Below are positions 11,132 to 18,917 of a DNA stretch of 33,999 bases, one piece after another. This stretch comes from a virus. The notes below the pieces were generated by a model. That model worked only from the letters and a program-made list of their open reading frames with translations. It was not told where the DNA came from and did not search any database. The stretch is from positions 1 through 33,999 of the IMG/VR virus record IMGVR_UViG_3300014050_000080; one strand, given 5' to 3'. A program made the translations under genes and the position numbers. The first letter of the stretch is position 1. Each line of letters opens with the position of its first letter.

Positions 11132-11145
11132 GTAAAAAGTAAAAA
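11132..11145 (+). repeat. Motif A copy
   Basis: GTAAAAAGTAAAAA followed by CTTAC; non-coding, 26 bases upstream of the palindrome before the double-HTH gene. Confidence 0.8.
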
Positions 11146-17620: not shown

Positions 17621-17700
17621 ATTCGGTAGGGAGTCGTATTGTTTCCGCCCCTTGCAAGTTCTAGGCGTTCAGGTGACCAGCGACTTTCCCCTACCGAATT
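17621..17700 (-). ncRNA. Candidate structured small RNA (about 80 nt)
   Basis: Both ends pair: 11 perfect base pairs (17621-17631 with 17689-17699) continue, after a 3-nt bulge, as 5 more (17632-17636 with 17681-17685). They enclose about 44 nt that can form CGCC/GGCG with a CTTGCAAG loop and a GGTCACC element. A promoter (17707-17735) places the start at about 17700, exactly the base of the stem, and another promoter begins 14 bases beyond the 3' end. No ORF or SD is present. It is not a recognised tRNA or riboswitch class. Confidence 0.65.
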
Positions 17701-17706
17701 AGAAAT

Positions 17707-17735
17707 ACAATAACACTTTATCCAAGTAATGTCAA
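17707..17735 (-). promoter_or_regulatory. Promoter for the 17.6-kb RNA
   Basis: TTGACA, 17-bp spacer, TATTGT; predicted start about 7 bases downstream, at the first base of the long stem. Confidence 0.78.
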
Positions 17736-18338: not shown

Positions 18339-18917
18339 CTACTCGATTTGCGTCTTAACGTGGATGGGCGGACTGCAATAAGCGTCCCACTTGGTAGCGA
18401 TTTCCACAGACTTATACACAATCTGTTCTGCCCGCTTAATATTTTTCGTTGCCTTCTCGATTCCTAAAGCAACCATTGCGCCTAATGCGACATCTCCGCC
18501 TGAACCGCCATAGTAAATGTTCCGTGCCTCTCTGTCCCAAGAGTAATCCTCAAAGATAGGGTAGATAACTCCACGCACAGCAATAATAAAACTGCTGTCC
18601 TGCATAGCCGTATCCCCGTCATCCTTCATGTCGTAACCTGAAGCAATAAAAACTTTACGAAGTGACGGGATAAACTTCTTCGTCATAAACTTGTCAAGAC
18701 TATCCAAGTTGTTCGTTCTTGGCGGGGCTGGTGGAGTCCAGCCAAACTGCGAAATGTTTCCGCCTCGACTTGCACCTGATACCGCAATTAGGTAGCCATT
18801 GTTCTCAATAATCTTGTGTGTAGCCAAGTCCATGACTCTGCCACTCTCATCTGAAGCACGGGAGTCACAGCCGATAACTGCAAAGCCTTCACCCTGAAAT
18901 GCCGCAAGTGTTGTCAT
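18339..18917 (-). CDS. Proteasome beta / HslV-like Ntn hydrolase
   Basis: This 192-residue protein has the T1-peptidase pattern. After removal of Met, Thr1 would be the nucleophile (TTLAAFQGEGFAVIGCDSRA), Asp falls at position 17 (CDSR) and Lys at about 34 (ATHKI), close to the Thr1/Asp17/Lys33 triad. A glycine-rich YYGGSGGDVALGAMVALG matches the region around Ser129. Length is near HslV (about 175-200). Such proteins are self-compartmentalised threonine proteases. No propeptide and no ATPase partner are adjacent, so it may work alone, use host Mpa/ARC, or be an inactive scaffold. SD AGAGAGGG; motif A lies just upstream. Confidence 0.85.
   Translation of the reverse strand: MTTLAAFQGEGFAVIGCDSRASDESGRVMDLATHKIIENNGYLIAVSGASRGGNISQFGWTPPAPPRTNNLDSLDKFMTKKFIPSLRKVFIASGYDMKDDGDTAMQDSSFIIAVRGVIYPIFEDYSWDREARNIYYGGSGGDVALGAMVALGIEKATKNIKRAEQIVYKSVEIATKWDAYCSPPIHVKTQIE

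Follow-up and report, generated by a model that had tools for sequence, protein, structure and literature searches.

A small structured RNA of phages with probably actinobacterial hosts keeps its apical loop self-complementary through sequence change

Does a short stretch lying between two phage promoters give rise to an RNA with a function of its own, or to no more than the leader of the next gene? We addressed this question in the virus record IMGVR_UViG_3300014050_000080, of which a stretch of 33,999 nt was analysed (the window hereafter). The element occupies 79 nt of the minus strand (17699-17621). The sigma-70-type promoter that a preliminary description of this DNA had placed before it was confirmed on the minus strand (17735-17707), with the -35 hexamer TTGACA (17735-17730), a 17-nt spacer and the -10 hexamer TATTGT (17712-17707) preceded by TG. 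It scores 10 of 12, ranks among the best promoters in the surrounding 2.5 kb and is separated from the element by 7 nt; transcription is predicted to start at the first base of the element or 1 nt earlier. The minus-strand fold reaches -28.1 kcal/mol (z -3.0), a value equalled by 0 of 200 shuffles. The plus strand of the region folds no better than its shuffles (z +1.3), on which ground a plus-strand RNA was rejected. A coding reading was also discarded, in agreement with the earlier view, as no frame survives the single-base indels of relatives. A second promoter (TTGACT-16-TATACT, 17607-17580, minus strand), likewise anticipated just past the 3' end, begins 14 nt beyond the RNA. It precedes the next gene, an ORF of 106 aa (17546-17226, minus strand) that belongs to no known family and lies outside the RNA unit; comparable promoters are found in seven other representatives.

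In the window, no terminator was found directly 3' of the RNA. Hairpins that look like strong terminators lie at 17975-17946 and 16604-16575 (both minus strand); the two are built alike and carry GAAA-type loops (AGGGGCGTTGGCAGAAATGTCAGCGTCCCT and GAGCGAGTTGGCGGAAACGCTGGCTCGCTT). The former, upstream of the promoter of the RNA, probably ends the preceding transcript. The window also holds ten dispersed copies of a 20-bp motif, GCAAAAAGTAAAAACTTGCA, on both strands (positions 11132, 13870, 16501, 17871, 18933, 21821, 22623, 28881, 28921 and 30846), where none is expected by chance. The copies fall mostly in the small-gene region, the motif is present in related phages too, and it may serve as an operator or a stoperator-like site.

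Phage contigs carrying the same element were reached through relatives of the 106-aa protein, and IMG/VR DNA was then scanned with patterns that were opened stepwise; all members thus come from one viral collection. About 55 IMG/VR phage contigs with 34 distinct RNAs were recovered. Every member scores far above background with two covariance models (R1 and R2); as a specificity control, 19 records of related phages that lack the element gave no match with these models. A final, looser scan of the viral collection added chance matches only, which suggests that the family is bounded at the sensitivity reached. Among sequenced phages, blastn with three queries returned chance matches only and no isolated phage was matched. 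A single-pattern scan of bacterial genomes gave 102 stretches, about the chance expectation, and none of the 80 that were checked fits the model. Of 31 positive records, 30 have the element once. A single phage record, a 131-kb contig (G026, the source of loci L201 and L228), has two copies; they lie 9 kb apart (103794-103867 and 94958-95031) and differ both in the palindrome and in the type of the second helix, P2. WhiB genes were found in 13 of 19 records tested and, among 14 control genomes, only in Corynebacterium. This distribution suggests that the hosts are probably actinobacteria; on general grounds, they are probably freshwater ones.

Comparison of the relatives defines the structure. 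When 26 RNAs are aligned without gaps, standard pairs fill 98.3% of the cells at proposed pairs, with 126 double changes; 13 of the 21 pairs change on both sides, and covariation reaches 0.60, compared to 0.18 when shuffled and at most 0.21 when slid. With divergent members included (34 RNAs), 99.8% of the cells are paired, with 141 double changes, 12 of 17 pairs changing and a covariation of 0.67 against 0.17 shuffled, in an alignment that was fitted to the model and hence leans towards it. The closing helix (P1), P2, which is reached via a one-pair step, and the apical helix (P3) all covary. G-U cells number nine against at most one A-C cell, which fixes the transcribed strand. Compensatory changes among homologues, whose absence had been named beforehand as one refuting outcome, are abundant, and since they are massive across 34 distinct homologues, the feature is well beyond chance on this comparative evidence. 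The structure itself is near certain.

P1 joins AUUCGGUAGGG (17699-17689) to CCCUACCGAAU (17631-17621), where an 11-bp inverted repeat (ATTCGGTAGGG/CCCTACCGAAT) had been noticed earlier. Eight P1 pairs were modelled, of which seven show changes on both sides and one is constant; the outer half changes almost freely, and the inner half keeps purines on the 5' strand and pyrimidines on the 3' strand. In relatives, the P1 3' strand is usually followed by an unpaired CUAA. The junction J1/2 (17688-17685) reads G-N-X-A, that is, an invariant G, a free N, a base X whose partner is 17632 and an A (17685) that in the main group is bulged and invariant. The X pair (17686:17632) is thus flanked by a 2-nt bulge on one side and, for the main group, by that bulged A on the other, and all 32 readable cases in relatives have it paired (AU 18, CG 6, UA 6, GC 2). 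P2 pairs GUCG (17684-17681) with CGAC (17636-17633), the latter followed by X' (U, 17632), and its covariation is seen in the versions GUCG/CGAC, GCCG/CGGC, GGCG/CGCC and CCGG/CCGG. Of the "11+5-bp" stem in the preliminary description, the 11 bp stood; the 5 bp had to be redrawn as the 4 bp of P2 plus the separate pair 17686:17632, because relatives show this pair across the invariant bulged A.

Beyond P2 lies an asymmetric internal loop formed by J2/3 (CUGGUCACCUGAA, 17680-17668) and J3/2 (GAAACAAUA, 17645-17637), both nearly invariant; its strands UGGNCACCUGAA and GAAACAAU barely vary across the family. A kink-turn was considered for this loop and rejected, as canonical G-A pairs do not fit on inspection. 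Mimicry of the 16S rRNA 3' end (GCUGG-N-CACCU against GCUGGAUCACCU) was also set aside, its upstream half being lost in the divergent group. P3 pairs CGCC (17667-17664) with GGCG (17649-17646) and covaries, with the versions CGCC/GGCG, CGAC/GUCG, CGGC/GUCG, CGUU/GACG and CGCU/GGCG. This stem and the palindrome CTTGCAAG lie where they had been described.

The preliminary description had overlooked that this palindrome stays self-complementary while its letters change. The apical loop has 14 nt, NNNAA-octamer-G, and the octamer of the window, CUUGCAAG (17658-17651, minus strand), is the proposed homodimer contact. Seven versions of the octamer occur in the 34 RNAs, all self-complementary: CUUGCAAG in 11, ACCUAGGG (aCCUAGGg) in 8, CUCUAGAG in 8, CGCAUGCG, CCUGCAGG and CUCUAGGG in 2 each and CGCUAGCG in 1. 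Five are perfectly so. The other two have three of four Watson-Crick pairs, one being a 6-nt palindromic core with an A/G flank and the other carrying a G-U in place of a Watson-Crick pair; as background, 2.8% of other sequence windows reach at least three of four pairs. The G after the octamer is present in 34 of 34 RNAs and the AA before it in about 31 of 34, and columns 41-46, 42-45 and 43-44 are paired in all 26 RNAs of the gap-free alignment. Moreover, four sets of RNAs, each sharing its flanks (identical P1/P2), carry different palindromes, indicating that whole palindromes were exchanged with self-complementarity retained. These statistics rest on related sequences, in which the independent changes (at least four) outweigh the number of RNAs.

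Folded on itself, the octamer could form two pairs at most, and a hairpin of that size needs no palindromic centre. Since the central four bases are nevertheless always palindromic (UGCA, CUAG or CAUG), intermolecular pairing is the simplest explanation. Computed self-duplexes range from -8.6 to -14.3 kcal/mol, and for each octamer except CUCUAGGG the most or nearly the most favourable partner is a second copy of itself. Pairing between different octamers is much weaker in most cases, the CUAG-centred versions among themselves being the exception, and the two palindromes of G026, CCUGCAGG and CGCAUGCG, cross-pair at only -3.2 kcal/mol. Together, these data suggest that the RNA likely forms a homodimer via its palindromic loop. 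Such a loop recalls the HIV-1 DIS (SL1) kissing loop, an element of retroviral genomic RNA with a 9-nt loop and a 6-nt palindrome. The likeness lies in the self-complementary core, in the purine flanks (AA before, a purine after) and in the occurrence of several natural palindromes; the DIS-like property of an octamer that is kept self-complementary through change is found throughout the seven versions. The phage RNA differs in its size of about 80 nt, its 14-nt loop and a palindrome that spans 8 nt in most versions. By analogy, then, the resemblance is one of the loop and its way of working, not of common descent.

A cmscan of the window and 12 family loci against Rfam 15 gave no match at the gathering threshold, in line with the earlier statement that no known class fits; the best match at E<=10 was CyVA-1, with 11.6 bits and on the wrong strand. 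The suggested likeness to 6S RNA did not hold, since no 6S model matched and a short 79-nt rod, with a single asymmetric loop and an apical loop that is palindromic, is unlike the ~180-nt rod of 6S RNA with its promoter-like central bubble. GOLLD, ROOL and OLE are structured non-coding RNAs of unknown function that self-assemble without protein, GOLLD being phage-borne (PMC12286853). They share with the element their structured, non-coding nature and, for GOLLD and ROOL, their occurrence in phages and prophages, but they are large (GOLLD often over 800 nt), form many-contact dimers or nanocages and are in Rfam, whereas the phage RNA has one palindromic contact and no Rfam match. In the guanidine-II (mini-ykkC) riboswitch, a bacterial leader RNA, palindromic loops also kiss (PMC7357161); that RNA consists of two small hairpins with ACGR loops and a 2-bp kiss, different from one rod with a 6-8-bp palindrome. 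RNA anti-CRISPRs (Racr) are promoter-driven small phage RNAs that occupy host proteins (PMC10651486). A Racr mimics the CRISPR repeat of its host and differs where that repeat differs, whereas the loop strands here are invariant across phages, which makes a Racr identity unlikely. The best reading of the sequences is a previously uncatalogued class of phage RNA without an Rfam match.

The genomic position of the element was surveyed at 38 representative loci, where it measures 75-81 nt. By inspection, nearly all of them have a -10-like hexamer whose end lies 5-8 nt upstream of P1, the automatic choice differing in several. An ORF directly follows the RNA at 30 loci, which makes the RNA, at the least, the 5' end of an mRNA as well; at 28 of these a Shine-Dalgarno (SD) sequence and a start codon follow 16-39 nt on, and two (L231 and L232) have a damaged or unusual start. 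In L231 and L232 the ORF seems to have no usual start codon although relatives conserve its product (MGKSFAGIDAPKYPEIEV family), which would fit an insertion of the RNA at the ORF start. At the other eight loci (the window, L005, L200, L206, L201, L208, L224 and L227) a new promoter comes first, some of these second promoters (L200 and L206) being identified by inspection only. In L201 and L208 a strong terminator-like hairpin also precedes the next gene, with a U-rich stretch behind it in L208. The first downstream ORFs belong to 21 unrelated families, and relative to conserved neighbours, for instance the HslV-like peptidase gene, the RNA can lie on one side or the other. The window's own HslV-family peptidase gene (phrog_1040) lies at 18339-18917 (minus strand), and such genes are near the RNA in many of these phages.

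The ORFs bear on the main rival explanation, that of a cis-acting 5' leader (riboswitch-like or protein-responsive) whose loop would bind a ligand and whose P1 would compete with the pairing of its own 3' strand (CUCCC) to the ribosome-binding site (GGGAG), thereby tuning translation of the next gene. The frequent position before an ORF fits such a leader, and a highly conserved internal loop within covarying helices is aptamer-like. The P1 3' strand also pairs with the SD of its own locus at -9.3 kcal/mol, compared to -8.3 kcal/mol for swapped loci (p 0.002, confounded by relatedness), and slightly better than with other SDs of the same phage (p 0.03). This pairing is poor in L203, L212, L228 and L230, however, so that the preference expected of a riboswitch with an anti-SD platform is weak and inconsistent across loci. 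Moreover, the 21 downstream families hold no constant gene class, and P1, with its 9-12 bp, has a stability far above that of a switching helix. Eight loci have a new promoter before the next gene, two of them with a terminator-like hairpin, and the palindromes would not be explained. We therefore consider a cis-acting leader unlikely.

An indifference to the following gene would be expected of an antiterminator, in which the nascent RNA binds the host RNA polymerase in cis and lets it read through early-region terminators. The putL and putR RNAs of phage HK022 are about 70 nt long and lie directly after an early promoter (PMC9378689); the similar length (about 70-79 nt), the position directly at the transcript start and the copy number of one or two per phage are features shared with HK022. 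Compared by description, put consists of two stem-loops side by side and is not known to have a palindromic loop, whereas the consensus here is a single rod; besides, a tethered monomer needs no self-complementary loop, and a fresh promoter follows the RNA at 8 of 38 loci, all of which leaves a Put-like role quite improbable. The RNA might instead do nothing but protect or enhance the translation of any mRNA as a hairpin at +1, as P1 begins at the predicted +1 in nearly all loci and stands generically before unrelated genes. Stability alone, however, requires no invariant loop strands, no covarying single pair between bulges and no kept palindrome, and the element is single-copy in phages with many promoters, making a mere 5'-end stabiliser or translation-enhancing leader very improbable. 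Inverted repeats and palindromes exist in DNA too, as in an operator, a cruciform or a recombination or replication site; yet the ratio of G-U to A-C cells (about 9 to 1), the -10 box at a fixed distance before P1 and the invariant, strand-specific loops within nested helices render a DNA element exceedingly improbable.

The sequences are best read as an RNA that has a function of its own, because it is promoter-started, stably closed, present once per contig, indifferent to which gene comes next and endowed with a self-complementary loop that is kept. We prefer action in trans to action in cis because of the single copy, the 21 downstream families, the mobility relative to neighbours and the promoters and terminator-like hairpins after the RNA; a function in trans with a protein partner is what we infer. 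The preferred explanation, a new class of phage RNA that forms homodimers and works in trans with a protein bound at its internal loop, has in our view about an even chance of being right. Transcription would start at the first base of the closing helix, burying the 5' end in an 11-bp helix, so that the RNA should resist 5'-end-dependent decay. It would fold into a rod of P1, a one-pair step with 2-nt and 1-nt bulges, P2, the asymmetric loop (UGGNCACCUGAA / GAAACAAU), P3 and the 14-nt apical loop. Two such RNAs would join by their palindromes, as kissing loops or an extended duplex, and the symmetric dimer would display the invariant internal loop twice and act in trans, with a host or phage protein bound via this loop (decoy or scaffold). 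More tentatively, we propose that this actinobacteriophage RNA could be an obligate homodimer whose palindrome is exchanged between lineages as a barcode, such that only like RNAs pair and two invariant loops are shown to a protein target.

Functional RNA oligomers are reported to be rarely observed in nature (PMC7357161). If true, our proposal would add a clean natural case, a small phage RNA in which evolution defends self-complementarity while changing the letters. Frequent change of the palindrome's letters may prevent cross-pairing between the RNAs of paralogues or of co-infecting phages. The short RNA, its predicted ends and its natural variants (seven palindromes, four P2 versions) make dimerisation, specificity and partner directly testable. 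The family further indicates that RNA databases lack structured RNAs which occur in phages of probably actinobacterial hosts.
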